NCBI GenBank assembly: GCA_902791475.1 | Contig: CADAWC010000002.1 | Coordinates: 1 to 64,000 of the forward strand | DNA from: Fibrobacter succinogenes | Lineage (GTDB): Bacteria; Fibrobacterota; Fibrobacteria; Fibrobacterales; Fibrobacteraceae | DNA: 64,000 nucleotides | Direction of reading: 5' to 3' | Part shown: piece after piece, positions 31,671 to 54,414 of the stretch | Layout: every line of letters begins with the position of its first letter | Position numbering within the stretch: the first letter of the stretch is position 1 | Position numbers and translations under genes: made by a program | Notes under the pieces: model-generated | What the model was told of the DNA's origin: nothing | Seen by the model: only the letters and a program-made list of their open reading frames with translations | Databases searched by the model: none

Positions 31671-31678
31671 TAAAATTA
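31671..31678 (-). promoter_or_regulatory. -7 box TAATTTTA of the beta-helix operon
   Basis: Minus strand TAATTTTA. It lies exactly 43 nt downstream of the dyad at 31722-31736 and 49 nt before the ATG. Confidence 0.65.
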
Positions 31679-31721
31679 TTCTCGAAAATGCGTTTTTTTC
31701 ATGTTTTAAGGCGAGATATTG

Positions 31722-31736
31722 TGGACTGTTTATCCA
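31722..31736 (-). promoter_or_regulatory. CAZyme regulon dyad, beta-helix operon
   Basis: TGGACTGTTTATCCA, a 15-bp imperfect palindrome of the TGGAC/TTGAC family shared by the cluster promoters. Its edge is 43 nt above the -7 box and 101 bp above the start codon. Confidence 0.75.
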
Positions 31737-31792
31737 TAGCTATGGGAGTGTGGAATATTCCGTTTTAGAGGAGTAATGTAAAGGGAGATGCC

Positions 31793-31850
31793 CGCTCGGT
31801 GGCGGGCATGACAAAAGCACAAAATGCCCCGCGGGAGTGCGGGGCATTTT
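31793..31850. terminator. REP-like palindrome and terminator of the GH27 gene
   Basis: A GGAGATGCCCGCTC/GGCGGGCATGACA palindrome (31793-31813) adjoins AAAATGCCCCGC / GCGGGGCATTTT (31821-31850), a perfect 12-bp stem. The stem has T-runs on both strands and lies 53 nt after the GH27 stop codon. Confidence 0.85.
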
Positions 31851-31903
31851 GAATGTGTGAGGCGAAATTTCGCGAGAGGGCGGCGCCCTCCCTAGTCTTT
31901 TAC

Positions 31904-33808
31904 TTAGCGAACGTTCACACGCTGAATTTGGTTACCCTTGACGGAGCGCACCATGTACGTGCCACGTGCATACCCAGCGTTCTTGAGCGCCTGCGGCATG
32001 CTAGCGCCATTCAAGTCCACGCGGCCGAGGTGCTTACCCGTAGCGCTGAACACGTTATAGGAGTTTTCGGATTCAAACGACGTGAGATGAACCTTTGCAA
32101 GCCCAACCTTTTCATCGCAAGTTTCTTCGCAGAACTTAATCCAGTCAATGTCCATCCAGTCGCCGGTTACCGTAAAGCGGAGGATGTGTTCGCCTTCGGT
32201 CAGCTTCACGTCAGCCTTAACTACGTTGTATTCATCGTAGTTGTCTTCGCCTTCGCTTGCAGCAGGTACTGCAATTTCTTCAGTAATATCCTTGCCATCC
32301 ATGGAGAGTTTGAAGCTAGAAGTACTGTTGGCAGAAGCCACAGAAGCATTCATGGCATAAGTTCCCGTCGAAGCCACCTTCACGGTGTATTCGAGCCATT
32401 CGCCAGCCTGGTTGTAGCCAACAATAATGCCTGTCGCCTTCTTGTAAAGGTCCACGCCAGTACCCGGGCGGTAATCGGAATCGCCGTGGTTTTCTGTATC
32501 GCTTTCGTTGTAAGTGGTGTTGCCCTGACCCACGCCGTTCACATCGAAATCTTCCACTTCGATCTTACCCGGAATGTCAAGAGGCTTGCCCTTGAACGGT
32601 GCGCGCGGAACCGGTTTGAGAACCAAGCGGAGCAGTGCAGAACCGTGAGCCGGAAGTTCAATAGAAACACTAGAGACCGGTCCCAAATCCTTCTTTTTCC
32701 AGGCATCGCGGACTTCTACTTCGCCTTCTACGCCAATGTCTTTAAAGTTGCATTCGACGGTCTGGGTAGAATTGTTATTGTTGAGAAGAGCCACGGCGAT
32801 GTCACCATTCTTCAAAGGCTTGGTCCAAACTTGCTTGCCGTTCTTATCGGAGATGCGGTGGCCCTGAACACCCAGGGAGTCCTGGTTAATGGCAATCATG
32901 TCCTTGTTCAGGTAGAGTTCCTTGGTCTCGTTGCTCATGTTGCGCACATCGGAACTGATCATGATGGGAGCAGCCATGATGGACCACATCGTCATCTGGG
33001 AGCGCTGTTCCTCGTAAGAGAGGCCTCTGTTACCTACTTCGAGCATGTCCGGGTCATTCCAGTGACCGGGCTTTGCAATCTGCCAATACTTGTTGTTCGC
33101 ATCGATAATTTCGTAGACGCCGCGGTACCACGAAGTCGAAATCCATTCGGGACCAATGTCGAAAGTGGTGCGCCAGAGGTTAGCAATTTTCGGCATCCAG
33201 TCCTTGTATTCCCACATGCAAATGCTGAACACGATGTCGCGTCCGGAATTGCGGAGAGCGTTGGACATTGCAGTGTAATCTTTTTCCTGCGTTCTCGGAT
33301 CCGAGTCGCAGTTATCGTACTTCCAGTAGTCAACGCCCCATTCAGCAAGCTTCTTGGCGTCCTGAACTTCGTGGCCGTTGGAACCACTTTCGCTTTGCCA
33401 GTTGCTATTGTAATGGTGGCAGGTGCGTTTGCCACGGTCGCCGTAAAGACCGAACTTGAGGCCCTTCTTATGCACGTAATCAGCGATGGCCTTCATGCCA
33501 CTCGGGAAAGTCTTCGGGTTGTTCTGGAGGTTGCCCTGGGCATCGCGCTTGGTGTCCATCCAGTTGTCGTCAAGGTTCAGGTAGATGTAGCCCGCATCCT
33601 TCAGGCCGGAATTGACCATCGCGTCGGCAATTTCCTGAATCTGCTTTTCGTTGATGTTTTCGTGGAAAACGTTCCAGCTGTTCCACCCGAGCGGGGGCGT
33701 AAGCACCAGGCTATCCGGATGCGCAAAGGCCTGGGAAACCAATCCCGCTAAAGCCAAAGAAGCCAGCACTCCAAACTTGCGACCATTTTTTTTGTTCAAA
33801 CCAAACAT
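31904..33808 (-). CDS. GH27 alpha-galactosidase with CBM6
   Basis: A 634-residue secreted enzyme (signal peptide about 1-29, ending QAFA). GH27 barrel (about 30-335): PPLGWNSWNVFHENI, YIYLNLDDNWM, the nucleophile Asp in DYWKYDNCD, the acid/base Asp in PGHWNDPDML. A C-terminal beta domain runs to about 425, CBM6 to about 565 (IPGKIEVEDFDVNGV), then the basic C-terminal module ending GTYMVRSVKGNQIQRVNVR. It should remove alpha-galactosyl side chains, for example from hemicellulose (beta-L-arabinopyranosidase activity also occurs in GH27). Start at 33808 is set by AGGAG 5 nt upstream. Confidence 0.93.
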   Translation of the reverse strand: MFGLNKKNGRKFGVLASLALAGLVSQAFAHPDSLVLTPPLGWNSWNVFHENINEKQIQEIADAMVNSGLKDAGYIYLNLDDNWMDTKRDAQGNLQNNPKTFPSGMKAIADYVHKKGLKFGLYGDRGKRTCHHYNSNWQSESGSNGHEVQDAKKLAEWGVDYWKYDNCDSDPRTQEKDYTAMSNALRNSGRDIVFSICMWEYKDWMPKIANLWRTTFDIGPEWISTSWYRGVYEIIDANNKYWQIAKPGHWNDPDMLEVGNRGLSYEEQRSQMTMWSIMAAPIMISSDVRNMSNETKELYLNKDMIAINQDSLGVQGHRISDKNGKQVWTKPLKNGDIAVALLNNNNSTQTVECNFKDIGVEGEVEVRDAWKKKDLGPVSSVSIELPAHGSALLRLVLKPVPRAPFKGKPLDIPGKIEVEDFDVNGVGQGNTTYNESDTENHGDSDYRPGTGVDLYKKATGIIVGYNQAGEWLEYTVKVASTGTYAMNASVASANSTSSFKLSMDGKDITEEIAVPAASEGEDNYDEYNVVKADVKLTEGEHILRFTVTGDWMDIDWIKFCEETCDEKVGLAKVHLTSFESENSYNVFSATGKHLGRVDLNGASMPQALKNAGYARGTYMVRSVKGNQIQRVNVR

Positions 33809-33846
33809 AAGCACTCCTGTATCCTAAGTATTAATCATCCCCAAAC

Positions 33847-33854
33847 TAAAAATA
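33847..33854 (-). promoter_or_regulatory. -7 box TATTTTTA of the GH27 gene
   Basis: Minus strand TATTTTTA preceded by GGGGG, exactly 43 nt downstream of the dyad at 33898-33912. Confidence 0.65.
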
Positions 33855-33876
33855 CCCCCTAAAAAACAAAAAAATT

Positions 33877-33899
33877 AAAGGAATTACACATGTTCCTTT
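33877..33899 (-). other. hairpin between activator site and core promoter (GH27)
   Basis: AAAGGAA / TTCCTTT 7-bp stem followed on the minus strand by a T-rich run. It overlaps the edge of the dyad by 2 nt and lies upstream of the -7 box. It may be a terminator or a cruciform element; terminators hold the same position in two other promoters. Confidence 0.5.
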
Positions 33900-33912
33900 G
33901 ACATTTTATCCA
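33898..33912 (-). promoter_or_regulatory. CAZyme regulon dyad, GH27
   Basis: TTGACATTTTATCCA (plus strand), 15 bp, edge 90 bp above the start codon and 43 nt above the -7 box. Confidence 0.75.
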
Positions 33913-33922
33913 CGATGGATAA

Positions 33923-33976
33923 TTAGTGATTATTTATTAGTCAAGAGTCATTGGTTTTTAGTGGTTAGTTATTGAG
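33923..33976. repeat. heptanucleotide tandem repeat
   Basis: TTATTAG, TCAAGAG, TCATTGG, TTTTTAG, TGGTTAG, TTATTGA in 7-nt register, the same type as at 218-258. Between the GH27 promoter and the CE1 terminator. Confidence 0.5.
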
Positions 33977-33982
33977 AGATGT

Positions 33983-34017
33983 AAAAAAGAGCGTCCCCGA
34001 AGCCAGGGAGCGCTCTT
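33983..34017 (-). terminator. terminator of the CE1 gene
   Basis: AGAGCG(TCCC) / (GGGA)GCGCTCT stem with six T on the minus strand, 19 nt after the CE1 stop codon. Confidence 0.85.
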
Positions 34018-34035
34018 GGTGAGAGAGAGTTTTTT

Positions 34036-35523
34036 TTAACGGTCAACGGGCAACATGAACGAACGCGTTTTATCGCGCAAGATGTAAACGCCCTTGCCAA
34101 AGCCAGCGTTTTTCATCGTTTTTTGCATGTTCGGCACATCGTTTTCGATGATTTCGACAAATCCGAGACGCTTGCCCGCAAGGTTATAGACATTGTACTT
34201 GCCAGCGGTAGTTGAGAGGCGAAGTGCCGTCGTTAAACCAACTGAGGGTTCCGCAATTTTCTTGAGCGTGACATTATCGAGCGTGAGCGTACCCGTCGAG
34301 GCGCCCGCATTAAAGCTCAAACGAGAATCCTTGTCCGTTGCGGCGGTCATCTGGAACTGGAAGGAATACTTCTTGGATTCCGTGCCAAGTTCAAAATTTG
34401 CCTTTTCGGTGAGGTAGCTTGCCCACGGATCGACGTGCTGTTCCACATTCACTTCGAGCGTGCGGGAGGCGCCGGCACTAGCATCAAAGCTCACTTCGTA
34501 CCACTGACCTTTTTCAAGATGCAAATCGTGCTGGATGAGCTGCACTTGGTAATTCTCCGTGCCGACTGCAGAAATGTCGAGCTGATACTTGCCATTTTTC
34601 ACATCGCCTGTTGCGGCGGCGCTGCCGTGAGTCTGCAAAGTCCAAGCGACATCGGTCGAATCAAAGCCGCCGTTGAAAATGCTGTCGCGATCGGTCGGAA
34701 CTTGAATTGCGGGCGCAAGCGTGGAACCGTCCAAGGAATAATTCTTGACAAAGTTCCAAATTTCAACACTCGTATTGACACTGACAGCCTCGTCCATGGA
34801 ATACCAGTGACCCTTGCCAGCAATCGTGAGCAAACGGACTTCGACGTTATCCTTGCAGCCGCTCCAGACTTCGAGAGAAGCGGCAGAACCCGGCTTGCTC
34901 GCCGGATAAGGCTTTGTAACCTTGGAACTCGAAGAGCATTTTTGCGCAGAGACCCAGCCCTTGAGGGTATTCACGGTGCTGTTGTAATTCACCACGTCAT
35001 CGGAAGTGCCGTGCGTATGCATAATCGGCATCGCGCGCTTGGGCGAGTTCACCCCGCCGCCACCAGAAACAGGCGCAATGGCCGCAATCATGTCGCCCAT
35101 CTTGTTTGCCGCATGGTAGCTCATCATGCCGCCCATCGAAAATCCCGAAACATACACGCGATTTTTGTCAATGCCGTACTTGTTGTACATTTCATTGATA
35201 ATCGCCTTGAGGAAATTGATGTCCTTGTCGCCACCGATGTCCCAGGCCTTGTTTTGACCGTTCGGGAACACGACCACAAATCGTGCGGTATCGGCAATCG
35301 GTTCCCACTTGGCAGCGTTCTGCTGATACGGGGCATCCTGATTCATGCCGTGCATTTGGATAATGAGCGGACGGCCCTTTTCGATATTTTTCGGCGCATA
35401 CACATTCATGGTACGGTTCGTGCCGTTCACGTTAATGTTGTCTGCAAAAGAAAATGTTGCAAGGCTTGCTAGAACAGCAAGCGAAAGCAATCCATGAGCT
35501 TTTTTGAAGATTTTACCAAACAT
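34036..35523 (-). CDS. secreted CE1-type feruloyl/acetyl xylan esterase with CBM and C-terminal module
   Basis: A 495-residue secreted protein (signal peptide about 1-27, ending SFA). An alpha/beta-hydrolase domain of the PHB-depolymerase/CE1 group (about 28-265): oxyanion region IIQMHGMNQDAP, nucleophile Ser in VSGFSMGGMMSY, Asp in THGTSDDVV, His in AGKGHWYSMDEA. A carbohydrate-binding beta-sandwich of CBM4_9 type (about 283-425; SIFNGGFDSTDVAWTLQTHG...LDNVTLKKI) follows, and then the basic C-terminal module ending GVYILRDKTRSFMLPVDR. It should release ferulate or acetate from arabinoxylan. GGGAT-like Shine-Dalgarno only weak; the start is the only ATG before the signal peptide. Confidence 0.88.
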   Translation of the reverse strand: MFGKIFKKAHGLLSLAVLASLATFSFADNINVNGTNRTMNVYAPKNIEKGRPLIIQMHGMNQDAPYQQNAAKWEPIADTARFVVVFPNGQNKAWDIGGDKDINFLKAIINEMYNKYGIDKNRVYVSGFSMGGMMSYHAANKMGDMIAAIAPVSGGGGVNSPKRAMPIMHTHGTSDDVVNYNSTVNTLKGWVSAQKCSSSSKVTKPYPASKPGSAASLEVWSGCKDNVEVRLLTIAGKGHWYSMDEAVSVNTSVEIWNFVKNYSLDGSTLAPAIQVPTDRDSIFNGGFDSTDVAWTLQTHGSAAATGDVKNGKYQLDISAVGTENYQVQLIQHDLHLEKGQWYEVSFDASAGASRTLEVNVEQHVDPWASYLTEKANFELGTESKKYSFQFQMTAATDKDSRLSFNAGASTGTLTLDNVTLKKIAEPSVGLTTALRLSTTAGKYNVYNLAGKRLGFVEIIENDVPNMQKTMKNAGFGKGVYILRDKTRSFMLPVDR

Positions 35524-35558
35524 ACCTTATCCCTTAGAGATATCCATTTCACCTAAAG

Positions 35559-35566
35559 ACAAAATA
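35559..35566 (-). promoter_or_regulatory. -7 box TATTTTGT of the CE1 gene
   Basis: Minus strand TATTTTGT, exactly 43 nt downstream of the dyad at 35610-35624. Confidence 0.6.
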
Positions 35567-35609
35567 CATTTGGAAGCGTAATTTATCGCATGCGGATTAT
35601 TATTTTCCA

Positions 35610-35624
35610 TTGCTCTTTTGACAA
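35610..35624 (-). promoter_or_regulatory. CAZyme regulon dyad, CE1
   Basis: TTGCTCTTTTGACAA inside the wider palindrome CCATTG...CAATGG (35607-35627). Edge 87 bp above the start codon; 43 nt above the -7 box. Confidence 0.7.
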
Positions 35625-35672
35625 TGGGTTGAGGGGATAAAATGTGTAATAGGGAGTGTTTAGAGAACAACC

Positions 35673-35730
35673 AAAAACGGCTTGGATATACCCGCAGGAA
35701 AGCAAGCTTTCCGCGGGTGCATCCAAGCCT
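35673..35730 (-). terminator. terminator of the GH43 (xylosidase-type) gene
   Basis: Long hairpin: GGCTTGGAT / ATCCAAGCC outer stem with an inner CCCGC/GCGGG and GGAAAGC/GCTTTCC stem, five T on the minus strand. 38 nt after the stop codon. Confidence 0.88.
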
Positions 35731-35767: not shown

Positions 35768-38104
35768 TTACTTTGTTACGGATAGGCGAAGGGTGTTGCC
35801 GGTGGTGAGGGACTTGACGACGTACACGCCGCTTTCCTTCACGAGGCTGTTCACCTTGCTGCGCACATCAAAGTTGCTGGATGCATCCACACGACCGATG
35901 AACTTACCGTTCAAGCCATAGACGCTATAAGACTGTACGCCTTGCACATTATGGAGAACGCCCTTTGCCAAGCCAACAATGGGATCCGGATCCGTTGCAT
36001 TTGCACCCTTCACGAACGTAAAGTAGTCGATATCAAGCCAAGAGCCGACAACCGTGAAGCGGAGTACATGATCGCCTTCCGGGAGTTTTACGTTTGCTTT
36101 TACCTTGTTATAATCGTCATAATTTTCTTCGCCAGAACTTGCCGCCGGCACAGAGAGTTCTTCAGTAATGTCCTTGCCATCCAAGGAGAGCTTAAAGCTC
36201 GAGGTAGAGCCCGCAGCAGCAACCGCAGCAAACATGGTGTAATCTCCCGCTTCCTTTACGTTCACGGTATATTCGAGCCAGTCGCCTTCACTGTTATAGC
36301 CGACAATGACACCAGTGGCCTTTTCGTAGAGGTCCACGGGTGTACCCTTGCGGTAGTCGCTATCGCCATGGTTTTCGGAATCGCCGTCATAGTAAGAGGA
36401 ACCATCTTTGCCCTTGCCCGGCACGTCGAAGTTTTCGGCCTCAATCTTGCCCGGGATTGCATTTGCAGGGCAGTTTTCGCCAGCAGCACAGAACGGAGTC
36501 TGCGGAACAGGTTCAGAACCGGCGCCGTCGAGGTAAATTTCATCGTTCACATCGGTACCGACCTTGAACCAGTCAAAGTCCGCATAGCCGCCCGCCTGCT
36601 TGGTCGCAAAGTTGAAGAGGCCCCAGCGCACGCCTACAAACATGTGGAGGTCGTAATTGAGCTTCACTTCGCTACCAATCTTTGTCCAAGTGTCGCCATC
36701 GGTGCTGTAATAGAAATATGCAGTACCACGGTCAATCGGCAGGTCAAAATCAATTCGCAGATAAACCTTGGAACCCGAAATCGACTTGCTTTCCTTCTGG
36801 CTTTCACCATTCTTGTTTCCGGTGTACATCACCACCTTGTAGCTGCCGCTTTCCTTAGCCAGAGCCACAAAACCCTTGTCATCCTGCAAAGCAACGAGAC
36901 CTGCAAAGTCACCATCCTTCATGCCGGTGCCATCGACAAGCGTACGGCCAGAGCACTTGGGACCAAAGGAGCGCTGGGTCAAAGTATTCTTTGCGTTCAC
37001 CACGCGAGAATCGGTGCGGCTCGTGGTAATGCGATAGAAGCCCGGATTTGCAGACAAGCTCCAGTTCTTGTTATCAGGGTTATGGTTGAACTGCCATTCG
37101 AGAGCCAGTTCGCCAGATTCAAAATCATCGCTGGTCACCATGCCGTAGCCCGGGAGCGGGGATTCCGGCAAGTCAATCGTCGAGGGAGCCTTGGATCCGC
37201 TCGTCGGAACCGGCCAACCATCCTTCCATTCCATCGGCACCAAGTGCGACATACGGCCAACCGGGCCGGAATCGCGGAACAAAAGTGCATACCACTTGCC
37301 ATCCGGCGTATCGAAAATGCCACCCTGGGCAACACCGTTATCTGAGAGGAAATACCTTCCGCTAAATCCAGAAAGCAAGTTCTTGGAACGGTAAACAATT
37401 TCGCTACGGCTCTTGCCAGCCGGCCAAGAAATCGTGAACAGGTAGTATTCGCCGTTCACCTTTTCCATGTGCGAGCCTTCCTGCTGCACGTAGTAGTTGC
37501 TGGTTCCAGTCACCTGGTTCACGCTCACGCCGCCGAGCTTACCGCTCTTGCCACCGGCCTTCACGCCAGAAGCATCGTCGTTCAACTGCACGTAGCTAAT
37601 CTGGTCGCCACTGCCGTAGAACACCCACACGGAGCCATCGTCATCAAAGAACAAAGAAGGGTCATGGTAGAACGGGAGCTGCACTTCGGACCACTGGCCA
37701 CTTTCCACATCGGCGGTTTTGTACAAATGAGTCTTGCCTGTCGTGTACGACGGAGTCAGCACGTAGAAAAATCCCTTGTGGTAACGGATGCTCGAAGCCC
37801 AAGAGCCCTTACCGTAGGCGTCCTTGCCGCCATTCAGGTTCTGCTGGTCGTTGTTGGTGAGCGTCTGGTAGGCATAACCCACCGTGCGCCACTGGGCCAA
37901 ATCCGTGCTCTTGAAAACAGGCACGCCAGGCGCAAAATGCATGGTCGTCGTGACCATGTAATAAGCATCGTCAACACGGACAATCGAGGGGTCCGGGCTA
38001 TCGACATACATGATCGGGTTATTGACCTTAACGGCTGCACTATTCACTACAGCAAAAGCAGCCAAAACCACAGCCGACTTCGCCATCTTACTAAACAATC
38101 CCAT
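35768..38104 (-). CDS. GH43 beta-xylosidase/arabinofuranosidase with beta-sandwich and CBM6
   Basis: A 778-residue secreted enzyme (signal peptide about 1-24). GH43 propeller (about 25-315): VDSPDPSIVRVDDAYYMV (base Asp), FYHDPSLFFDDDG (pKa Asp), VQQEGSHMEKVNGEYYL (acid Glu). A second beta-sandwich (about 325-520; ALEWQFNHNPDN...ADFDWFKVG) resembles the accessory domain of GH43 xylosidases. CBM6 about 545-680 (IPGKIEAENFDVPGKG), C-terminal module ending GVYVVKSLTTGNTLRLSVTK. It should trim xylo-oligosaccharides or arabinose. Start at 38104 (MGLFSK) is fixed by AGGAG 5 nt upstream; the upstream reading from 38143 has no site. Confidence 0.9.
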   Translation of the reverse strand: MGLFSKMAKSAVVLAAFAVVNSAAVKVNNPIMYVDSPDPSIVRVDDAYYMVTTTMHFAPGVPVFKSTDLAQWRTVGYAYQTLTNNDQQNLNGGKDAYGKGSWASSIRYHKGFFYVLTPSYTTGKTHLYKTADVESGQWSEVQLPFYHDPSLFFDDDGSVWVFYGSGDQISYVQLNDDASGVKAGGKSGKLGGVSVNQVTGTSNYYVQQEGSHMEKVNGEYYLFTISWPAGKSRSEIVYRSKNLLSGFSGRYFLSDNGVAQGGIFDTPDGKWYALLFRDSGPVGRMSHLVPMEWKDGWPVPTSGSKAPSTIDLPESPLPGYGMVTSDDFESGELALEWQFNHNPDNKNWSLSANPGFYRITTSRTDSRVVNAKNTLTQRSFGPKCSGRTLVDGTGMKDGDFAGLVALQDDKGFVALAKESGSYKVVMYTGNKNGESQKESKSISGSKVYLRIDFDLPIDRGTAYFYYSTDGDTWTKIGSEVKLNYDLHMFVGVRWGLFNFATKQAGGYADFDWFKVGTDVNDEIYLDGAGSEPVPQTPFCAAGENCPANAIPGKIEAENFDVPGKGKDGSSYYDGDSENHGDSDYRKGTPVDLYEKATGVIVGYNSEGDWLEYTVNVKEAGDYTMFAAVAAAGSTSSFKLSLDGKDITEELSVPAASSGEENYDDYNKVKANVKLPEGDHVLRFTVVGSWLDIDYFTFVKGANATDPDPIVGLAKGVLHNVQGVQSYSVYGLNGKFIGRVDASSNFDVRSKVNSLVKESGVYVVKSLTTGNTLRLSVTK

Positions 38105-38145
38105 AATCACTCCTTTCCAACCAAGGCTAGATAAGATTAACAATC

Positions 38146-38153
38146 ATAATTTA
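38146..38153 (-). promoter_or_regulatory. -7 box TAAATTAT of the GH43 (xylosidase-type) gene
   Basis: Minus strand TAAATTAT, exactly 43 nt downstream of the dyad at 38197-38211. Confidence 0.6.
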
Positions 38154-38196
38154 TCCCATTTACATGGTTTTAACCCGCAATCGCACGCCCTTTTTA

Positions 38197-38211
38197 TGGA
38201 TTTTTTATCAA
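38197..38211 (-). promoter_or_regulatory. CAZyme regulon dyad, GH43 (xylosidase-type)
   Basis: TGGATTTTTTATCAA, 15 bp, edge 93 bp above the start codon; 43 nt above the -7 box. No matching box exists in the other direction, so it does not seem to serve the plus-strand esterase. Confidence 0.7.
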
Positions 38212-40446: not shown

Positions 40447-40530
40447 TTAGCCGTACACAAGCCCAAGGGCAACAGCGACGACAAAGAAGAAAGCAATTTG
40501 CTTTACGATTACCAACTCGTTTTTATTCAT
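40447..40530 (-). CDS. 27-residue membrane peptide, overlapping the CE6 stop
   Basis: A tiny ORF of 27 codons plus TAA. It starts MNKNELVIVK and continues as one hydrophobic helix (AFFFVVAVALGLVYG), i.e. a single-pass membrane peptide with a short charged head. Its ATG lies inside the last codons of the CE6 gene (ATGAATAA: the TAA is the CE6 stop), and AAGGTGGTG stands 4 nt upstream. Translation would be coupled to the esterase, and a shared terminator follows. Nothing known resembles it. It might be a chance ORF, but start site, overlap and composition argue for a real gene. Confidence 0.6.
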   Translation of the reverse strand: MNKNELVIVKQIAFFFVVAVALGLVYG

Positions 40531-42212: not shown

Positions 42213-42220
42213 AAAATTTA
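42213..42220 (-). promoter_or_regulatory. -7 box TAAATTTT of the CE6 gene
   Basis: Minus strand TAAATTTT, preceded by AGGG, 44 nt downstream of the dyad (the only promoter not at 43). Confidence 0.6.
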
Positions 42221-42264
42221 CCCTAAAATTGATGAAAAAGCTCAAACATAAGCTCCATATAATA

Positions 42265-42279
42265 TGGACGTTTTGTCAA
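42265..42279 (-). promoter_or_regulatory. CAZyme regulon dyad, CE6
   Basis: TGGACGTTTTGTCAA, edge 84 bp above the start codon. It overlaps another dyad, TCCATATAATATGGA (42254-42268), which shares the TGGA half-site. Confidence 0.75.
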
Positions 42280-44481: not shown

Positions 44482-44489
44482 TAAATTTA
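44482..44489 (-). promoter_or_regulatory. -7 box TAAATTTA of the GH30 gene
   Basis: Minus strand TAAATTTA preceded by GGGGTA, exactly 43 nt downstream of the dyad at 44533-44547. Confidence 0.65.
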
Positions 44490-44532
44490 TACCCCTCGCG
44501 CAATCATTTTACACCCCCAGAATAATTTTCCA

Positions 44533-44547
44533 TTGTCATTTTGGTAA
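44533..44547 (-). promoter_or_regulatory. CAZyme regulon dyad, GH30
   Basis: TTGTCATTTTGGTAA (plus strand), edge 94 bp above the start codon. A hairpin AAAGACTCT/AGAGTCTTT (44555-44579) lies just above it. Confidence 0.7.
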
Positions 44548-44921: not shown

Positions 44922-44977
44922 AATATGGAATTTAGAAACTCCAGACGCCCAAAAGGCATTTTCCCAAATATTTATCA

Positions 44978-44992
44978 TTGACATTTTGGTAA
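44978..44992 (-). promoter_or_regulatory. orphan CAZyme regulon dyad
   Basis: TTGACATTTTGGTAA, differing at one base from the GH30 dyad. No gene starts within 500 bp below it on the minus strand; see the candidate small RNA. Confidence 0.6.
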
Positions 44993-47325: not shown

Positions 47326-47333
47326 TAAAACTA
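47326..47333 (-). promoter_or_regulatory. -7 box TAGTTTTA of GH43 paralogue 1
   Basis: Minus strand TAGTTTTA preceded by GAGGG, exactly 43 nt downstream of the dyad at 47377-47391. Confidence 0.65.
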
Positions 47334-47349
47334 CCCTCAAAAACACCAA

Positions 47350-47375
47350 AAGACCCACGAAAAATCGTAGGTCTT
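47350..47375 (-). terminator. hairpin terminator between activator site and core promoter (GH43 paralogue 1)
   Basis: AAGACC(C)ACGA / TCGT(A)GGTCTT stem with TTTT on the minus strand. It lies between the dyad and the -7 box, so it can stop read-through from GH43 paralogue 2 without touching the new transcript. Confidence 0.7.
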
Positions 47376-47376
47376 A

Positions 47377-47391
47377 TGGATAAAAAATCCA
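47377..47391 (-). promoter_or_regulatory. CAZyme regulon dyad, GH43 paralogue 1
   Basis: TGGATAAAAAATCCA, a near-perfect 15-bp palindrome; edge 99 bp above the start codon. Confidence 0.75.
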
Positions 47392-47477: not shown

Positions 47478-47488
47478 GCATGACATCC

Positions 47489-49714
47489 TTAGCGAGTGGT
47501 GCGAACTCTTGCGACTGCGCCGTTGTGACGGTTACGGATGATACAAACGCCCTGCACGCTCTTGGACATGGCGTTATCGCGCCAGAGCTTCTTAGCTTCG
47601 TGGATGTGGCGAGCCGTGAAGCTCGTAATCTTCTTGCCGTTCAGATCGAACACGTCGAACGTGGCGACAGAATTTGCACCAAGCACCCTGAAGCCCTTGA
47701 TACCAATCGTTTCGTCGTCCGGATCCGTAGCATTCTTGCCAGCAGCAAACTGCATGTAGTCGATATCGAACCAGTCGCCCGTAACAGTGAAGCGCAGGAC
47801 ATGTTCACCGGCCGGGAGCGTCACGTTAGCCTTGACCTTGATAAAGTCATCCCAGCTATCGCCAGCAACCGGAACTTCAGCAACAGACTTGCCATCAATG
47901 GAAAGCGTAAAGCTAGCCGTGGAATTGTCCGTTGCCACAGAGGCAAACATCGTGTAGTCGCCATCTTCCTTGACGTTCACGGTATATTCGAGCCATTCGC
48001 CGGACTGGTTGTAGCCCACGACATAGCCTGTAGCCTTCTTGTAGATATCCACGCCGGTGTCTTCGCGGTAGCTCTTGCCGCCGTTGCTTTCGGCACCGTG
48101 GTCTTCGGAATCGTTTTCGCTGTAGGACTTGATTTCGCTACCGCGGCCAGAGCCCGGAATGTCAAAGTCTTCCATTTCAATCTTGCCCGGAATATCCCAA
48201 GCCTTGCCGCTAAACGGCTTCTGCGGTTCCGGCGGAGTCGTGCCACTGCCTTCGAAGCCCCAAGCCTTGACTGCCATGGTCGAATCCTGATTACCCTTGA
48301 ACACGAGGAACAGCTGCTTTACGACGCCCGAGAGGCCTTCGACATCGCACTTGTTTTCCACAAAGGTGTTCTTGTTGCCGGTATTCTTGATGGTGCAAGT
48401 ACCCGCAAGCGTACCCGTTGCAGAACCCGAGCGGATTTCGACCTTGTTACCATCAGCCGTGCTTGCGGCTTCAACGGTAAAGCCCGTTGCGCCAGCGCCA
48501 AAGTCCACGCCCGACACGCGGAGCCAAGCTTCCTTGCTCGAAAGCGGGAGCATCACATGTTCGGCAGCCTTGCCCTGCACAAAGTTAGAGCGGCTGCGGA
48601 TGCCCTTCTGCTTGGAGCTCGTGAGTGCCGGATACCAATCGTACGGGTCAAAGTTTTCAATCTGCGCCGGGCCTTCATCCGTCACCTTCACCGTCTGAAT
48701 GGTGCCGTCAGCATTGTAGAACATTTCATCAACAGAAACGCTACGGTGGTAACCTTCGTTTGGTTTTGCCTTGCCATCATCTGCCGGGATAATTTCCAAG
48801 CCGTTGTGGCCCTTCGCGATACGGCGGTCATGATAGACAACGTAAGAATGGCCCTTGAATTCGGCAATACCATGATGGTTGTTGTTGCCGTTGATGCTAC
48901 GGCCGTTCATGCTCGGGTCGCCAAGAATCGTACCCTTCCAGGTGTACGGGCCCATAACGTTATTCGATATACCGTAGTCAATCGTCGGAGCGCCCTGCTG
49001 CCAACCGGTACTGTAAGAGAAGTAGTAAGTACCCTTGTGCTTGTGGATGTAAGAAGCTTCGAGCATCTTGCGGGTCGGCAAGTTGTTCACCTTCACATGG
49101 GAACCGTTGCCCACCGGGGCGTTCTTGGCATCGTTCAATTTCACAATGTCAAAGTTGTCTGTATTCGGGCGGCTGTTGCTTTCGCCACCGCCCCACGTCA
49201 CGTAGGTCGTGCCGTCGTCATCAATGAAGATGCCCGGGTCAAAGCACCACGAAACGCCATCGCAACCGATGATACCGCGACCACCGACAAGCTTATCCTT
49301 GCCCTGGCCCACAGCGTTTGTCCACGGGCCTTCAATTGCAGGCGCCTTGATGTAGCCAATGCCGCCACCACCGCCATCCGGGAACACGATGTAGAACGTG
49401 CCGTTGTGGACAGCAATGCCAGAAGCCCAAATGTCGTTAATGCCGTTCACCTTGCGGGCATCGTAAATAATGCCGAAGTCGGTCCAGTTCTGCATATCCC
49501 TACTGCGGAATGCATAAAGGGCGTAAATCTTGTAACCGTTAGAATTGTACGGAGCCGGGTCATCGGAGTCCGTGATGATGTAGAAGTAATCATCGTCAGC
49601 GGCTGCACCCGGGTCAGCCAAGTAGTGGTAAGTAGAAATCGGGTTGTCAGCGAGAGCGCTTACTCCAAAGCCCGCCAAGAGTCCAAACATCGTTGCTTTC
49701 TTAAGTAGTTTCAT
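47489..49714 (-). CDS. GH43 enzyme with two CBM6-type domains, tandem paralogue 2
   Basis: A 741-residue secreted paralogue (signal peptide about 1-22, ending SALA). Catalytic Asp in YHYLADPGAAADDDYFY, pKa Asp in WCFDPGIFIDDDG, acid Glu in RKMLEASYIHKHKG. First CBM6-type domain about 345-500 (SSKQKGIRSRSNFVQG to MAVKAWGFEG), second about 515-655 (IPGKIEMEDFDIPGSGRG). The C-terminal module ends QGVCIIRNRHNGAVARVRTTR; Cys replaces the usual Tyr of GVY, as in paralogue 3. Likely arabinofuranosidase, perhaps with shifted side-chain preference. AGGAG 4 nt before the ATG. Own promoter with regulon dyad. Confidence 0.9.
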   Translation of the reverse strand: MKLLKKATMFGLLAGFGVSALADNPISTYHYLADPGAAADDDYFYIITDSDDPAPYNSNGYKIYALYAFRSRDMQNWTDFGIIYDARKVNGINDIWASGIAVHNGTFYIVFPDGGGGGIGYIKAPAIEGPWTNAVGQGKDKLVGGRGIIGCDGVSWCFDPGIFIDDDGTTYVTWGGGESNSRPNTDNFDIVKLNDAKNAPVGNGSHVKVNNLPTRKMLEASYIHKHKGTYYFSYSTGWQQGAPTIDYGISNNVMGPYTWKGTILGDPSMNGRSINGNNNHHGIAEFKGHSYVVYHDRRIAKGHNGLEIIPADDGKAKPNEGYHRSVSVDEMFYNADGTIQTVKVTDEGPAQIENFDPYDWYPALTSSKQKGIRSRSNFVQGKAAEHVMLPLSSKEAWLRVSGVDFGAGATGFTVEAASTADGNKVEIRSGSATGTLAGTCTIKNTGNKNTFVENKCDVEGLSGVVKQLFLVFKGNQDSTMAVKAWGFEGSGTTPPEPQKPFSGKAWDIPGKIEMEDFDIPGSGRGSEIKSYSENDSEDHGAESNGGKSYREDTGVDIYKKATGYVVGYNQSGEWLEYTVNVKEDGDYTMFASVATDNSTASFTLSIDGKSVAEVPVAGDSWDDFIKVKANVTLPAGEHVLRFTVTGDWFDIDYMQFAAGKNATDPDDETIGIKGFRVLGANSVATFDVFDLNGKKITSFTARHIHEAKKLWRDNAMSKSVQGVCIIRNRHNGAVARVRTTR

Positions 49715-49757: not shown

Positions 49758-49765
49758 TAAAAGTA
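49758..49765 (-). promoter_or_regulatory. -7 box TACTTTTA of GH43 paralogue 2
   Basis: Minus strand TACTTTTA, exactly 43 nt downstream of the dyad at 49809-49823. Confidence 0.65.
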
Positions 49766-49808
49766 TGTCCAAAATCACAAAATAGCCCTGAACACGCCAA
49801 AAGATTTA

Positions 49809-49823
49809 TGGACAAAACGTCAA
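49809..49823 (-). promoter_or_regulatory. CAZyme regulon dyad, GH43 paralogue 2
   Basis: TGGACAAAACGTCAA, edge 95 bp above the start codon. Confidence 0.75.
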
Positions 49824-49904: not shown

Positions 49905-52136
49905 CTAGCGGGTCATGCGGACCTTAGCCATCATGCCAGTGCCACGGTTGCGGATGATGCACACGCCCTGCACATTAGCCTGGGCGCCACCACGAAGCAT
50001 GTTCTTCGCTTCGTCCATGCTATGGGCCGTGAAGCTAGAGACCTTCTTACCGGTCAAGTCAAACACGTCGTAAGTTGCAGCAGTGATTGCATTCATGCGA
50101 ACCATCTGACGGATACCCACTTCGCCACCTTCATCCGGGTCCTTGGCATCCTTGCCTGCTGCAAACTGGATGTAGTCGATGTCCATCCAGTCGCCAGTCA
50201 CGGTAAAGCGGAGGATATGCTTACCCGACGGGAGCTTCACATTAGCCTTCACCTTGCTGTAGTCGTCATAGTTTTCTTCGCCATCGTTCTTCGGGACAGA
50301 AATCGATTCCGTAATATCGTCACCATCGATGGAGAGCTTAAAGCCAGAGGTCGCATTGGCAGAAGCCACCGCCGCAAACATCGTGTAGTCGCCTTCCTTT
50401 TCGACATTCACAGTATATTCCAGCCATTCATCGGCCTGGTTGTAACCGACAACGTAACCCGTCGCCTTCTTGTAGATATCGACGCCGGTACCTTCGCGGT
50501 AGCTCTTGCCGCCATTGCTTTCGGCACCGTGGTCATCGGAATCGTTTTCGCTATAAGAATCGTTGCCTGCGCCATAGCCCGGTTCATCGAAGTTTTCCAT
50601 TTCGATCTTGCCCGGGATCGCCCAAGCCTTGCCGCCAAACGGAGTCTGCGGTTCAGGTTCGCGCTTCGTACCCTGGAATTCCCATTCAAGAACGCCCATG
50701 GTAGAATCCTTGCCATTATTCTTGAACACGAAGAACACCTGGTCGACAACGCCGGTGAGGCCCTTCATTGCGCAATCGTTATCCACGAAGGTCATGTTAT
50801 TGGCTGTCTTCGCCAGTTCGCAAGTACCGGCGAGCGTACCTGTCGCACTACCCGTATGAATTTCAATCTTGTTGCCATCGCCCACGTTTGCGGCCTTGAT
50901 GCGGAGGTTTTCAGCACCTTTACCGAAGTCCACACCAGTCACGCGGATCCAGGATTCGCTACGGCTCGTAAGCGGCAAGAGCACGTGCTTGACCGGCTGC
51001 CCCTTAGTCCAGTCCGTACGGCTACGGATGTTCATCTGCTTGGAGCTCGTCGTTGCCTTGTATGTCTTGTACGGGTCAAAGTTCTTGATTTGCTTCGGTC
51101 CTTCACGTGTGAAGGTGAGCTTGTTCATCTTGTCGCCATTCCACGTGAGTTCGTCGATGGACACGCTTCTGTGGTTTTCGTAGTTCGGGTTTTCGGAGCG
51201 CACGCCCTGCTGCGTCGTTGCAGCCGGATGGTTGTCAGAAGTCACCAAGCGACGGTCGTGGTAAACGGCATACCACTTGTCCTTGAACGGAGCAAAGCCC
51301 TGGTGGTTGTTACCACCTTCGCCGTGCGCATCAGGCACGGAGCCAATTCCCGGAATAACCGTACCTACGAAGGTATAAGGCCCCCAAATATTGTTGGACA
51401 TACCATAGTCAATCACCTGGCTACGGTTGTTGAAGCTCAAGTAATAAGTGCTACCCTTCTTGTGCAGGTAAGGAGCTTCAAAAGAGTTCGGCAAAGAAAC
51501 CTTCTTCAAGGAGTTCTTGTCGAAAGTAATCTTGCCATTGCTTTCGGTAAAGCTGATAATGTCAAAGTTGTTGCCATACGGGCGGCTGGAGCTTTCGCCA
51601 CCACCGAAAATCACGTAACCCTTGCCGTCGTCATCAATCAAGATGCCCGGGTCAAAGCAGTGCGCAATGCCGTCGCAGCTACCAATCAAGCTACCGCCAC
51701 CTGCAATTCTATTGACGCCATGGGTTTCCTTGACCGGGTCGGTATAAGGACCATCGATAGCCGGGGCGGTAATCATACCCACGCCGCTTGCACCATCAGG
51801 GTAAACAATGTAAACCTTGCCGTTTTTCACGGCAATGCCCGAAGCCCAGGTGTTGTTCGGATAGTTCCCGAATTCACGCCTGGAGCGGAAAATCATGCCG
51901 TGATCAGTCCAGTTCTTCATGTCTTCAGACGTGAAGGCGTAAAGGCCGACAATATCGTAGTTCCAGTTCGTCTGGTTGTTATAGTCATCCACATCGGTCA
52001 AGATGTAGAAGGTATCACCGTCAGAGGCGCAAGAAGGGTCCGCCAGATAGTGATAGCTAGAAATAGGGTTGTCAGCAAGCGCGCTTACACCAAAGCCAGC
52101 AATTAAGCCCAGTGCAGCCAAACGTTTCATGTTCAT
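49905..52136 (-). CDS. GH43 enzyme with two CBM6-type domains, tandem paralogue 3
   Basis: A 743-residue secreted paralogue (signal peptide about 1-23). Base Asp in YHYLADPSCASDGDTFY, pKa Asp in HCFDPGILIDDDGKG, acid Glu in NSFEAPYLHKKGS. The most diverged of the three in the propeller (HGVNRIAGGGSLIG, PGIGSVPDAHGEGGNNHQG). First CBM6-type domain about 355-505, second about 520-655 (IPGKIEMENFDEPGYGAG), C-terminal module ending QGVCIIRNRGTGMMAKVRMTR. The ATG at 52136 is chosen because AAGGAG lies 5 nt upstream; a longer in-frame reading to 52232 would begin before the promoter. Arabinofuranosidase-like. Confidence 0.9.
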   Translation of the reverse strand: MNMKRLAALGLIAGFGVSALADNPISSYHYLADPSCASDGDTFYILTDVDDYNNQTNWNYDIVGLYAFTSEDMKNWTDHGMIFRSRREFGNYPNNTWASGIAVKNGKVYIVYPDGASGVGMITAPAIDGPYTDPVKETHGVNRIAGGGSLIGSCDGIAHCFDPGILIDDDGKGYVIFGGGESSSRPYGNNFDIISFTESNGKITFDKNSLKKVSLPNSFEAPYLHKKGSTYYLSFNNRSQVIDYGMSNNIWGPYTFVGTVIPGIGSVPDAHGEGGNNHQGFAPFKDKWYAVYHDRRLVTSDNHPAATTQQGVRSENPNYENHRSVSIDELTWNGDKMNKLTFTREGPKQIKNFDPYKTYKATTSSKQMNIRSRTDWTKGQPVKHVLLPLTSRSESWIRVTGVDFGKGAENLRIKAANVGDGNKIEIHTGSATGTLAGTCELAKTANNMTFVDNDCAMKGLTGVVDQVFFVFKNNGKDSTMGVLEWEFQGTKREPEPQTPFGGKAWAIPGKIEMENFDEPGYGAGNDSYSENDSDDHGAESNGGKSYREGTGVDIYKKATGYVVGYNQADEWLEYTVNVEKEGDYTMFAAVASANATSGFKLSIDGDDITESISVPKNDGEENYDDYSKVKANVKLPSGKHILRFTVTGDWMDIDYIQFAAGKDAKDPDEGGEVGIRQMVRMNAITAATYDVFDLTGKKVSSFTAHSMDEAKNMLRGGAQANVQGVCIIRNRGTGMMAKVRMTR

Positions 52137-52180
52137 ACACACTCCTTCGGACCAGCCATACACCGCCAATCCATCCATTA

Positions 52181-52188
52181 TTAATCTA
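52181..52188 (-). promoter_or_regulatory. -7 box TAGATTAA of GH43 paralogue 3
   Basis: Minus strand TAGATTAA preceded by GGAGG, exactly 43 nt downstream of the dyad at 52232-52246. Confidence 0.6.
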
Positions 52189-52200
52189 CCTCCAAACAAC

Positions 52201-52229
52201 AAAAAAAGACCTGCAATGCGATGCAGGTC
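52201..52229 (-). terminator. terminator of the lipoprotein gene, nested in the next promoter
   Basis: GACCTGCA / TGCAGGTC perfect 8-bp stem and seven T on the minus strand, 30 nt after the lipoprotein stop. It lies between the dyad (52232-52246) and the -7 box (52181-52188). Confidence 0.85.
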
Positions 52230-52231
52230 CA

Positions 52232-52246
52232 TTGATAAAATGTCAA
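52232..52246 (-). promoter_or_regulatory. CAZyme regulon dyad, GH43 paralogue 3
   Basis: TTGATAAAATGTCAA, a near-perfect 15-bp palindrome, edge 96 bp above the start codon. Confidence 0.75.
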
Positions 52247-52258
52247 TAGTGGATAAAT

Positions 52259-53479
52259 CTACTCTTCTTTCCGGACAACGCTCTTCTTCACAACCGGGGC
52301 GTACGGGTCAAAGATACCGTAGCCAAAGACTTCGATATCGTCCACCCAGACTTCCGTATCCATAGCGCCGAAGATGCCAATCTTTGTGACACTGTCCTTC
52401 ACCGCTTCCCAACCGTAGTTACCGCCATTGCTGTCAGCCGTATCCAGTTCCGCCGGAATCACGGTAAACTGCGTCCAGACCGTATCCGCCTCGAAATGGC
52501 GCCAAGACTTGATATTATCGGAACTCGTCACGGAATCGTCATTCACGAACCTGTCGAACGAGAACGAAATTCTCGACGGAGTCGAGACGCGGACCCAGAA
52601 GCGGATAGAATCCAGATCGCTCAAGTTGACATAGCCACCCAGTTCACGACCGATAAGCGCCCAGTCCCACTGAGCCGCAGAATCGCGTTTACAGATAAAG
52701 TGTGCAGCCTTGCCTTCGCGACCAAGACCTGCCGATTCAATATTAAAGGTGACCTCCGCGTTGAGCGATGCAGCAGCTTCCCACGCACCGGCGCCATTTT
52801 CAAAGTCATCAAATACAAAATATTTCTTGACGTATGCAGAGTCACCAAGGTAAAGGGCGCCTTCGCCAGATGGCGCACCAACGTCAGCCTCAATGCGGCC
52901 ATATTCCGTGACCGAGTCAGCATCAGCTTCGTTCACGAAAGCGACAATTTCGACATTGCCGTTCGGGAGCGATTCAAATTCAAAGTAACCGGTAGAATCC
53001 ATCGGGACCTGATAGTCCAAGCCCTGCACAGAAACTGTTGCAGAACGGCGGACCAACTGCGGAAGACCGACACGACCGGAGACCTTGGTCGGTTCCGAGA
53101 CTTCTACTGTCAAAGGTGTCGTGGAATCAGATTCGACGTATGCAATCTTTACAAAGCCCTTCAAATTCAAGGAATCACTGCGGGCTTCAATTATATAAGA
53201 ACCAGTCGGGACATCAGACAGAACCACTCGGCCCTGTTCGTCGGTTTCAAAGTGCAACTGGTAAAGGGAGTCCGAACCCAGTTCGGTTGCACCCGACAAA
53301 TAAGATTCAGGGCGGACAATAACGTCCATACGTGCAGCAGGCGTGCCATCGGCCAATTGAGTAAGCACCGCGATGGAATTTTCCGTTTCCATCGACGATC
53401 CTGCGGTACGACCGCTATCGCAGGCGACATTGCACAGTGCCAACATCGCCAATCCGTATGTCCACGCCCGTTTAATCAT
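52259..53479 (-). CDS. lipoprotein with carbohydrate-binding-type C-terminal domain
   Basis: A 406-residue lipoprotein (LCNVAC; Cys about 20). Two Ig-like/carboxypeptidase-regulatory beta domains (about 35-125, with RVVLSDVPTGSYIIEARSD, and about 128-190, with STGYFEFESLPNGNVEIVAF). A C-terminal jelly roll (about 225-395; YFVFDDFENGAGAWEAA, DSIRFWVRVS, VWVDDIEVFG) resembles CBM11/CIA30-type sugar-binding folds. Its ATG overlaps the stop of the TIGR02147 gene (ATGA), so the pair is translated together. A surface carbohydrate sensor or binding protein that works with that regulator is a plausible inference, not shown. AGGAG 6 nt before the ATG. Confidence 0.8.
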   Translation of the reverse strand: MIKRAWTYGLAMLALCNVACDSGRTAGSSMETENSIAVLTQLADGTPAARMDVIVRPESYLSGATELGSDSLYQLHFETDEQGRVVLSDVPTGSYIIEARSDSLNLKGFVKIAYVESDSTTPLTVEVSEPTKVSGRVGLPQLVRRSATVSVQGLDYQVPMDSTGYFEFESLPNGNVEIVAFVNEADADSVTEYGRIEADVGAPSGEGALYLGDSAYVKKYFVFDDFENGAGAWEAAASLNAEVTFNIESAGLGREGKAAHFICKRDSAAQWDWALIGRELGGYVNLSDLDSIRFWVRVSTPSRISFSFDRFVNDDSVTSSDNIKSWRHFEADTVWTQFTVIPAELDTADSNGGNYGWEAVKDSVTKIGIFGAMDTEVWVDDIEVFGYGIFDPYAPVVKKSVVRKEE

Positions 53480-54342
53480 TTTTTTACTCCTGCACCTTCC
53501 CCTTTTATTATAGTATTTTCCGACGCCCCTCCTTTACGGGCAACCGGATAAAAAGCCATAGAAAGCTGCATAACACGATCAGGATTCTTGGCTCCGTCTA
53601 CTCTTTTTTGGACTAGACGGCGGAATTCCCTCAACATGTCGCCCAAATCCTCGAAGCAGGACTGGTCTACAGATAGGGTCAGTGTAGAAATATTACGTTC
53701 ATTGACGGGGACGTTTTCGAGCGCATCGCTCGCAAGGCTCAACACCTGGCGCTGGAAATTGCGCACAGCCTTCGCCTTTTCGGGGCCCCCTACTGTCAAA
53801 TGGGCTTCGGTGAGTGCGAGCTTGCCCGAGGCAAGTTTCTTCACGAGACCGACGCTCTTCAAAGTTTCAATGGCTTCGAGAGCCTGTTCCTCAGTGATCG
53901 GCGGGCAGATGTCCTTTGCAATCTGCTTGACGTTTACAACGCCACCGTTCAATTCCAGGTAGGCGCGTACCGCAGGAATCCACCAGTTTTCGAGGAGTTT
54001 AAGTTCAGCAGCCTGCAAAGAATGGCGTTCCACGTCGCGCAGCGAGAGTGCTTTCGCCATGAGTTCTTCGCGCTTGGTCTTATCCTTGCTGACAGCAGCA
54101 GAATACAGGAGGTCGAAGTATTCGGCCTCGCGACCACTCAGCGCAAGGATTTCCTTTGCCGCAGGTAATGCATGAGCAGGCAAGTGCTGCTTCTTTTGCA
54201 ATACGCGATAGAGATAGCTGGAGTCTAGCCCGAGCTTGTCACCCATCATGCGGTAGCTGTAGAAGGGCATCTCGACCTTGCGCCTGTCGTAGAATTCCTT
54301 CAAGAAGTCGCGGTAATCCGCTATGTCAGAAAAAGTAACCAT
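53476..54342 (-). CDS. TIGR02147-family (DUF4423) protein, candidate regulator of the cluster
   Basis: A 288-residue soluble protein of the TIGR02147 family, known mainly from Fibrobacter and a few other phyla. YRDFLKEFYDRRKVEMPFYSYRMMGDKLGLDSSYLYRVL (about 8-45) looks like a helix-turn-helix (MGDKLGLDSSYLYRVL). IRPITEEQALEAIETLKSVGLVKKL-type residues (about 145-170) look like a second winged helix; the C-terminal part (about 190-275) has RNFQRQVLSLASDAL and TLTLSVDQSCFEDLGDML. DNA binding is inferred. Its own promoter carries the regulon dyad at the standard 43-nt spacing, and it is overlapped by the lipoprotein gene. The ATG at 54342 is 6 nt below the -7 box, so the mRNA is nearly leaderless. 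Confidence 0.82.
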   Translation of the reverse strand: MVTFSDIADYRDFLKEFYDRRKVEMPFYSYRMMGDKLGLDSSYLYRVLQKKQHLPAHALPAAKEILALSGREAEYFDLLYSAAVSKDKTKREELMAKALSLRDVERHSLQAAELKLLENWWIPAVRAYLELNGGVVNVKQIAKDICPPITEEQALEAIETLKSVGLVKKLASGKLALTEAHLTVGGPEKAKAVRNFQRQVLSLASDALENVPVNERNISTLTLSVDQSCFEDLGDMLREFRRLVQKRVDGAKNPDRVMQLSMAFYPVARKGGASENTIIKGEGAGVKK

Positions 54343-54348
54343 CAATAT

Positions 54349-54356
54349 CTAAAATA
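54349..54356 (-). promoter_or_regulatory. -7 box TATTTTAG of the TIGR02147 gene
   Basis: Minus strand TATTTTAG, exactly 43 nt downstream of the dyad at 54400-54414 and 6 nt before the ATG. Confidence 0.65.
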
Positions 54357-54399
54357 TTTAAAACAGAACACCGAAGACCTACAATGTAAACATTTGGTA

Positions 54400-54414
54400 T
54401 GGATATTTTGTCAA
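54400..54414 (-). promoter_or_regulatory. CAZyme regulon dyad, TIGR02147 gene (autoregulation)
   Basis: TGGATATTTTGTCAA, edge 58 bp above the start codon (short leader) but at the same 43 nt from the -7 box as in the enzyme genes. Confidence 0.75.

Follow-up and report, generated by a model that had tools for sequence, protein, structure and literature searches.

A dyad at a fixed distance above hemicellulase promoters of Fibrobacter succinogenes and its probable TIGR02147/DUF4423 activator

A site that lies upstream of the polymerase footprint at a fixed helical phase acts like a class I site of CRP. The window analysed here (the whole stretch of 64,000 nucleotides (nt) from Fibrobacter succinogenes, contig CADAWC010000002.1) carries a hemicellulase cluster in which a short dyad recurs at a set distance above TAnnTT promoter boxes. 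The dyad is, with a probability of roughly 0.8, the operator of the TIGR02147 (Fsuc_second)/DUF4423 protein whose gene lies at 53476-54342; this protein would switch on both its own gene pair and a set of hemicellulase genes throughout the genome. The arrangement resembles CRP class I activation in a dyad centre near -62, an alternative register about 10 bp further upstream and a fixed helical phase, and differs from it in that the regulator has no matched cyclic-nucleotide-binding domain and the promoter is of the TAnnTT type. The predicted N-terminal fold of the regulator resembles that of SinR, lambda cI and C.AhdI of the XRE group; on the other hand, its HTH_3/HTH_31 matches lie below cut-offs and about 180 further residues with DUF4423 follow. 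The hybrid two-component systems (HTCS), SusR and sigma/anti-sigma pairs of Bacteroidota also place a regulator inside a glycan cluster with surface-type proteins nearby, whereas here there were only DUF4423 and weak helix-turn-helix (HTH) matches, a separate lipoprotein partner and many separate promoters. Peptide-sensing RRNPPA regulators (PrgX, ElrR) are similar in that an XRE-like domain at the N-terminus is followed by a longer C-terminal portion; a lipoprotein gene adjoins that of the present protein, and its full-length model gave weak Foldseek matches to them, but its C-terminal part is DUF4423 and those matches had E-values above 0.3 (0.33-0.56) and template-modelling (TM) scores of about 0.2.

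The proposed regulator is a member of the TIGR02147/PF14394 paralog family, whose models state no function. In the retrieved portions of the open-access full-text literature on TIGR02147, DUF4423 and Fsuc_second, just a Bdellovibrio proteome table listing Bd3700 as DUF4423 was found. Open-access titles and abstract openings on Fibrobacter regulators, promoters and xylanase regulation contained no such site, with subscription papers mostly outside the search. The extracted text of the genome paper on strain S85 described the transcriptional control of cellulase genes as an unanswered question and noted few regulators near these genes (PMC3079729).

All ten 15-bp dyads reported in a preliminary description of this DNA (31722 to 54400) were present, and dyads and genes were on the minus strand. 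The distance from the dyad edge to the first base of the TAnnTT box was 43 nt at nine of the ten sites and 44 nt at 42265, as described. The dyad itself is real, but ATKGAY-N5-RTCMAT (17 bp) described it better than the 15-bp palindrome first given, and TTACC was a further half-site variant. The spacer had been called unconserved, which mostly held among 24 promoter rows (3-4 of these likely chance matches); a slight signal was present at positions -24 (T) and -23 (G) relative to the box (16/24 each), and many rows had G or A at -5 to -1 before the box. The reported lack of TTTG at the -33 place was roughly right, with TTTG nearby in 3 of the 24 promoters and a weak TG at -24/-23 common. A leave-one-out matrix scan over the 64-kb window, with rank as the number of windows scoring higher, placed the ten dyads at 1, 1, 3, 3, 6, 7, 7, 12, 12 and 15, and the two lowest-scoring dyads, 35610 (rank 12) and 44533 (rank 15), both kept the 43-nt box. 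The frequency of TAnnTT in the window was 0.0033 per position per strand; of the positions to which the ten-site matrix gave a score over 9, only the ten sites and an eleventh dyad at 44978 had a box 42-44 nt away. The dyad and box arrangement is confirmed.

The 3.86 Mb genome was searched with the box-blind pattern TKGAYN5RTCMA and with the reversed pattern as control, giving 73 matches against 19, and for A/T-centred dyads 31 against 4. Eight of the 73 matches lay in the window (35610 and 44533 miss the strict pattern) and 65 outside it, from which 32 distinct dyads were examined, chosen by list order and an A/T-looking centre before the flanks were seen. The expectation that dyad and spacing would recur together across the genome was borne out: TAnnTT stood exactly at 43 nt in 11 of the 32 outside dyads, where 97 other offsets averaged 0.42, and at 42 nt and 44 nt in one each. 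Eight of the eleven 43-nt sites preceded genes with signal-peptide-like starts by eye, namely those for a GH2, a GH95-CBM6, two GH10-CBM6, two PETase-like (esterase-like) proteins and two proteins with weak carboxypeptidase-regulatory-like matches; the 42-nt site preceded a GH5 gene. Across 62 related loci around the regulator, 114 of 318 distinct dyad orientations had TAnnTT at 43 nt, 22 had it at 42 nt and 11 at 44 nt, while 82 other offsets gave a background mean of 2.0. The loci are related by descent, one genome contributed two of them, and many may equal genomes that carry G handles below. A chance pattern in AT-rich intergenic DNA, which loose boxes of four fixed bases and AT-rich upstream regions would favour, is refuted by 11 of 32 at one offset against 0.42 and 114 of 318 against 2.0, and we regard it as practically impossible. 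The counts support a regulon that would extend beyond the cluster, genome-wide. At G000:C18:45188 (L051:12189), TTGATAAATTGACAA departs from the dyad by one mismatch and likewise has a box at 43 nt, which may make it the fifth site of the C18 cluster.

The preliminary description named no regulator; one is probably encoded within the cluster. The 53476-54342 product scored 187.8 bits with TIGR02147 (cut-off 50) and 94 bits with PF14394, DUF4423 (cut-off 30), which places it in a family with 35 TIGR02147 matches in this genome. The N-terminal 108 residues were modelled with a predicted local distance difference test (pLDDT) of 92 and a predicted TM score (pTM) of 0.84, and the nearest folds were SinR, lambda cI, C.AhdI and P22 c2 (Foldseek probability 0.84-0.99), nearly all lambda-repressor-like. 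The domain is accordingly predicted to be lambda-repressor-like and of a DNA-binding type, with an HTH placed by eye at residues 30-48; the middle part was weakly winged-helix-like. The full-length fold search gave MarR-like and mixed matches with high root-mean-square deviation, which were left out of the membership assignment. At E up to 5, HTH_31 was matched in 10 and HTH_3 in 3 of 45 members. At the same threshold a cyclic-nucleotide-binding domain was not among the three Pfam families matching the protein, and no histidine kinase, receiver or periplasmic sensor was matched.

The regulator ATG (54342) starts 14 nt after the first box base, which would leave its mRNA with almost no leader. 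By analogy with Bacteroidota-type promoters, transcription would begin about 12 nt downstream of that base in each box. The 53476-54342 protein is predicted to bind the dyad as a dimer centred near -62, and an upstream contact with polymerase would then activate the weak TAnnTT promoters, mostly with one promoter per enzyme gene and with positive autoregulation through the near-leaderless message. Both binding and activation are inferred from sequence. A class I activator has its operator centred near -61.5 or whole turns further and fixed to the promoter; with the start placed as above, the dyads fall at this position, and those of sister lineages mostly lie 49-50.5 or 58.5-60.5 nt above the box. 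Binding by the same protein that leads to repression or only modulation is very unlikely: lambda-repressor-like proteins are often repressors, but a centre about 50 nt above the box is outside the usual blocking region, the spacing is exact and moved by about one helical turn in lineages L002 and L004, and the boxes are mostly without a TTTG partner.

The activator reading is carried further by the regulator's own promoter. Homolog loci had a zero-mismatch dyad in 48 of 50 and TAnnTT at 42-44 nt in 45 of 50, and the dyad with TA..T[TC] at 42-44 nt was found in 60 of 61 named related loci, with one fragment (L317) dropped from the 61-locus counts of promoter and lipoprotein motif. Of 48 promoters from the regulator's own lineage, 36 had the dyad centre 50.5 nt upstream of the box, 8 had it at 49.5 nt and 2 at 51.5 nt; one promoter may be double-counted. 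This lineage (L019) also showed TA..T[TC] at 68.5-69.5 nt in up to 32 promoters, which we attribute to the beginning of the coding region (ATGGTTACTTTT).

Different dyads were found before other TIGR02147 lineages. Patterns were picked by eye, distances were measured from dyad centre to box, and lineages were chosen as near relatives or leaderless-looking; a 20-row group-A clade and L005, L009, L016, L021, L026, L029, L031 and L033 were left out, and rows L088 (start misplaced), L117 (sister type) and L134 (restored for the blind scan) were dropped from the eye-pattern count. The L001 lineage had GKTTAC-N4-GTAAMC centred 50.0 nt above the box in 30/30 promoters, the L003 type GTTGT-N6-ACAAC at 49.0 nt in 13/17, and the L035 lineage a dyad at 49.5 nt (9) or 50.5 nt (4) in 13/13, with the loose pattern TTG-N9-CAA of a second L035 branch at 49.5 nt in 12/16. 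TTG-N9-CAA of L002 was centred at 59.5 nt (12), 60.5 nt (8) or 58.5 nt (5), together 25/25, and a dyad of L004 stood at 59 nt in 6/9 and also at 57 nt in 5. The two registers (49-50.5 against 59-60) differ by about ten base pairs, about one helical turn.

A letter-blind palindromy scan over distances of about 35-75 nt served as control. It ranked the eye-pattern distance first for L019 (50.5), L035 (49.5), L001 (50.0), L002 (59.5) and L003 (49.0); for L001 the value at 50.0 was 0.84 against a mean of 0.36 with a standard deviation of 0.08. The arrangement was therefore clear by the blind scan in three of five other lineages (L001, L002 and L003) and in one branch of a fourth (L035). Members with TKGAY dyads carried the HTH stretch DSSYLYR, or DASYLYR, DASYLFR or DASQLFR, which was different elsewhere, and L003 and L004 had KDFISRVM and GACAACG half-sites in common. 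These patterns suggest that TIGR02147 proteins act in a class-I-like manner, each switching on its own gene through a private operator. The earlier proposal of an activator-type site near -60 before the hemicellulase cluster gains support from a box distance that is exact within the window, at other genomic sites and across the 62 related loci, and from the one-turn-further register in two sister lineages. For L013, no clear dyad was seen in its own promoter. Promoters of the group-A paralogs had TTG plus TATATTTG and recurrent GTATCAT/GTATAAT upstream elements, unlike the class-I-like arrangement.

Alternatively, the dyads could be bound by some unrelated regulator, either the product of a distant gene or a response regulator from the cluster, with the TIGR02147 pair as one target among others. 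Regulators often act in trans, and the portion of the S85 genome paper at hand assigned the likely control of the cellulase/hemicellulase cluster Fisuc_1762-1804 to two metal-dependent response regulators (PMC3079729). Such an explanation is quite improbable, for the different dyads at like registers before five other TIGR02147 lineages would each need a separate unrelated regulator; in addition, Pfam recognised no other regulator in the 14 main open reading frames (ORFs) scanned between 26939 and 54342, and one WYL protein (25737-26750) among ten flanking ORFs scanned, part of the window's ORFs being unscanned.

The distribution of dyads and regulator was compared across 111 family genomes, with orthologs called at E 1e-90 or better and A/T-centred dyads counted. 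Genomes with the ortholog (91) had a mean of 18.9 dyads against 3.9 reversed, and those without it (17) had 8.4 against 4.5. The dyad excess differed between the two groups (Mann-Whitney p 1e-8, kinship ignored), from which G070, G016 and G107 with intermediate E-values were left out, and also within the genus, where 76 genomes with and 3 without the ortholog were compared (p 0.003). In S85 RNA sequencing, hemicellulase genes moved together and went up during slow growth on soluble sugars (PMC6204037), and the words 'regulator' and 'transcription factor' were absent from the available main text (PMC6204037). Expression cluster 16 was enriched there for CBM6, CE6, GH10, GH30 and PL1, and cluster 17 for CBM6, GH27, GH43, GH95 and GH141 (PMC6204037). 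As far as this published text goes, the two clusters resemble the make-up of the regulon, the match being by family only (PMC6204037).

Several results weigh against the 53476-54342 protein as the activator. Its full-length model had a pTM of 0.53, every Foldseek E-value of its N-terminal domain was above 0.1, and HTH Pfam matches were below cut-off, with HTH_31 at 15.5 bits against 27. No convincing gene was present at 3 of the 11 outside 43-nt sites, and C26:58497, C28:14411 and C84:4083 were for this reason dropped as targets; the outside 44-nt site (C10) had no clear target gene either. The two most distant dyad-bearing homologs (55% and 53% identity) were without TAnnTT at 42-44 nt. Among the sisters, the dyad of L004 was imperfect and the blind scan tied it among 59.0, 57.5 and other distances, the second L035 branch peaked at 46.0 with 49.5 third, and the L001 dyad was rejected as a wide regulon since at zero mismatches it had a single genomic copy. 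Four of five ortholog-less genomes (G046, G044, G105, G001) were also without the GH43-CBM6 enzyme at E 1e-40, the ortholog-less G023 (65% complete) had enzyme relatives and 10 dyads against 2, and genus g4 was without the ortholog yet had 121 dyads against 63 reversed in 12 genomes. Co-occurrence is weakened as proof of the binder by the four genomes; because enzyme and ortholog are missing jointly, it indicates a system lost together, not the identity of the binder. The published families were split over two expression clusters (PMC6204037), and PL1 was not among the targets examined.

The regulon may also be shared, because L013 and L035 are close sisters of the regulator and the dyad of the L035 promoter is near-identical. 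The sites would then be common to two or three sister regulators (53476-54342; L035, G000:C40:15066-15914; L013, G000:C28:11787-12587), each of them prevailing at part of the promoters. All three fall in a single supported clade, the L035 own promoter has ATTGTCAATTCGTCAAT 42 nt above TATTTCAT, and 1.8 kb away from L013 there is one dyad whose box stands at 43 nt. We consider this sharing unlikely, as the HTH residues differ (DSSYLYR, ETSQVFR and DSSHAYY) and L035 is missing at E 1e-90 from 59 of the 111 genomes, some of them dyad-rich (G038 with 20, G030 with 19).

If the 53476-54342 protein is indeed the activator, work on hemicellulase control in Fibrobacter would gain a single regulator that can be tested, together with its operator and a list of target genes. 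It would also be the first function for TIGR02147/DUF4423, with 35 members in this genome, and operators of other members could be located by the rule that each promoter has a dyad of its own some 50 or 60 nt upstream of the box.

Reading along the window, the promoter at 31671-31736 (dyad 31722-31736, box 31671-31678) precedes the frame 29024-31633 (ATG about 31621), which encodes a CBM6-bearing GH141-type protein, and would also serve the GH43-CBM6 gene 26939-29011 behind it. The promoter at 33847-33912 (dyad 33898-33912, box 33847-33854) belongs to a Melibiase_2 protein with CBM6 (31904-33814), which we take to be GH27, and that at 35559-35624 (weak dyad 35610-35624, box 35559-35566) to an esterase-like protein with CBM4_9 (34036-35523). 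A GH43-CBM6 gene (35768-38143) follows the promoter at 38146-38211 (dyad 38197-38211, box 38146-38153). The 44-nt site at 42213-42279 (dyad 42265-42279, box 42213-42220) serves a SASA esterase with CBM6 (40523-42181), presumably the CE6 of the preliminary description, and the site at 44482-44547 (weak dyad 44533-44547, box 44482-44489) a GH30-type protein with CBM6 (42364-44439). Three more GH43-CBM6 genes have promoters at 47326-47391 (dyad 47377-47391, box 47326-47333; gene 45086-47278), 49758-49823 (dyad 49809-49823, box 49758-49765; gene 47489-49714) and 52181-52246 (dyad 52232-52246, box 52181-52188; frame 49905-52232, start codon likely below the box). The proposed activator, a protein of 288 amino acids (aa) encoded on the minus strand at 53476-54342, has its promoter at 54349-54414 (dyad 54400-54414, box 54349-54356). 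Hairpins resembling intrinsic terminators of the upstream gene were seen by eye between dyad and box in the 47377 and 52232 spacers and at the L052 site 4939, where a single 43-nt spacer may double as terminator and promoter part.

The eleventh dyad (44978-44992, sequence ATTACCAAAATGTCAAT) has its box (44927-44934) at 43 nt on the minus strand and is an orphan site at 44927-44992, with no ORF of at least 100 aa behind it before 44439 and a strong terminator-like hairpin below it at 44779-44752. The matching site in the relatives G072 and G040, also at 43 nt, precedes the gene of a 721-aa protein, which Pfam identified as GH43-CBM6 in the G040 copy. The orphan stretch matched 20 genus genomes, in most of them at just both of its ends. 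A small RNA at 44978 is disfavoured by the gene behind the counterpart in G072 and G040 and by the mostly ends-only matches. Because these relatives carry the GH43-CBM6 gene, 44978 is probably an orphan promoter whose gene was lost from this lineage, and the enzyme behind its counterpart is an independent hint that the dyad marks hemicellulase promoters.

The lipoprotein gene (52259-53479, minus strand) overlaps the regulator gene by 4 nt. Its product has a lipobox, recognised by eye and followed by an AG..ETEN.IA motif, and a carboxypeptidase-regulatory-like stretch and a CBM4_9-like end, both under Pfam cut-offs. An AG..E..N-like motif was found downstream of the regulator in 57 of 61 loci with a relaxed expression and in 31 of 61 with a strict one, and after other TIGR02147 genes of this genome in 29 of 35 and 15 of 35. 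The relaxed 29/35 set includes at least two doubtful rows (L008, L018) and misses L005, L019 and L032, where a similar motif was seen by eye; the motif was ambiguous in L003, L006 and L007. Many of the TIGR02147 genes (L001-L035) are followed by a lipoprotein gene, several with a 4-nt overlap, with the motif just after the lipobox Cys. Speculatively, the co-encoded lipoprotein may supply the signal. It is conceivable, at less than even odds, that a TIGR02147 regulator with an overlapping AG..E..N lipoprotein forms a signalling module found across Fibrobacter, with some 35 copies in every genome. Each surface lipoprotein would then sense a single plant-wall polymer or surface condition, and its private HTH partner would respond through a class-I-like switch at an operator of its own. 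Such a circuit would add a third type of glycan sensing to HTCS/SusR and sigma/anti-sigma pairs.

The gene of a WYL/WCX-domain protein (25737-26750, plus strand) adjoins the far end of the cluster. An AAA ATPase is encoded at 18420-20768 on the minus strand, and its top NCBIfam match was the anti-phage protein IteA, far under the cut-off of that model.

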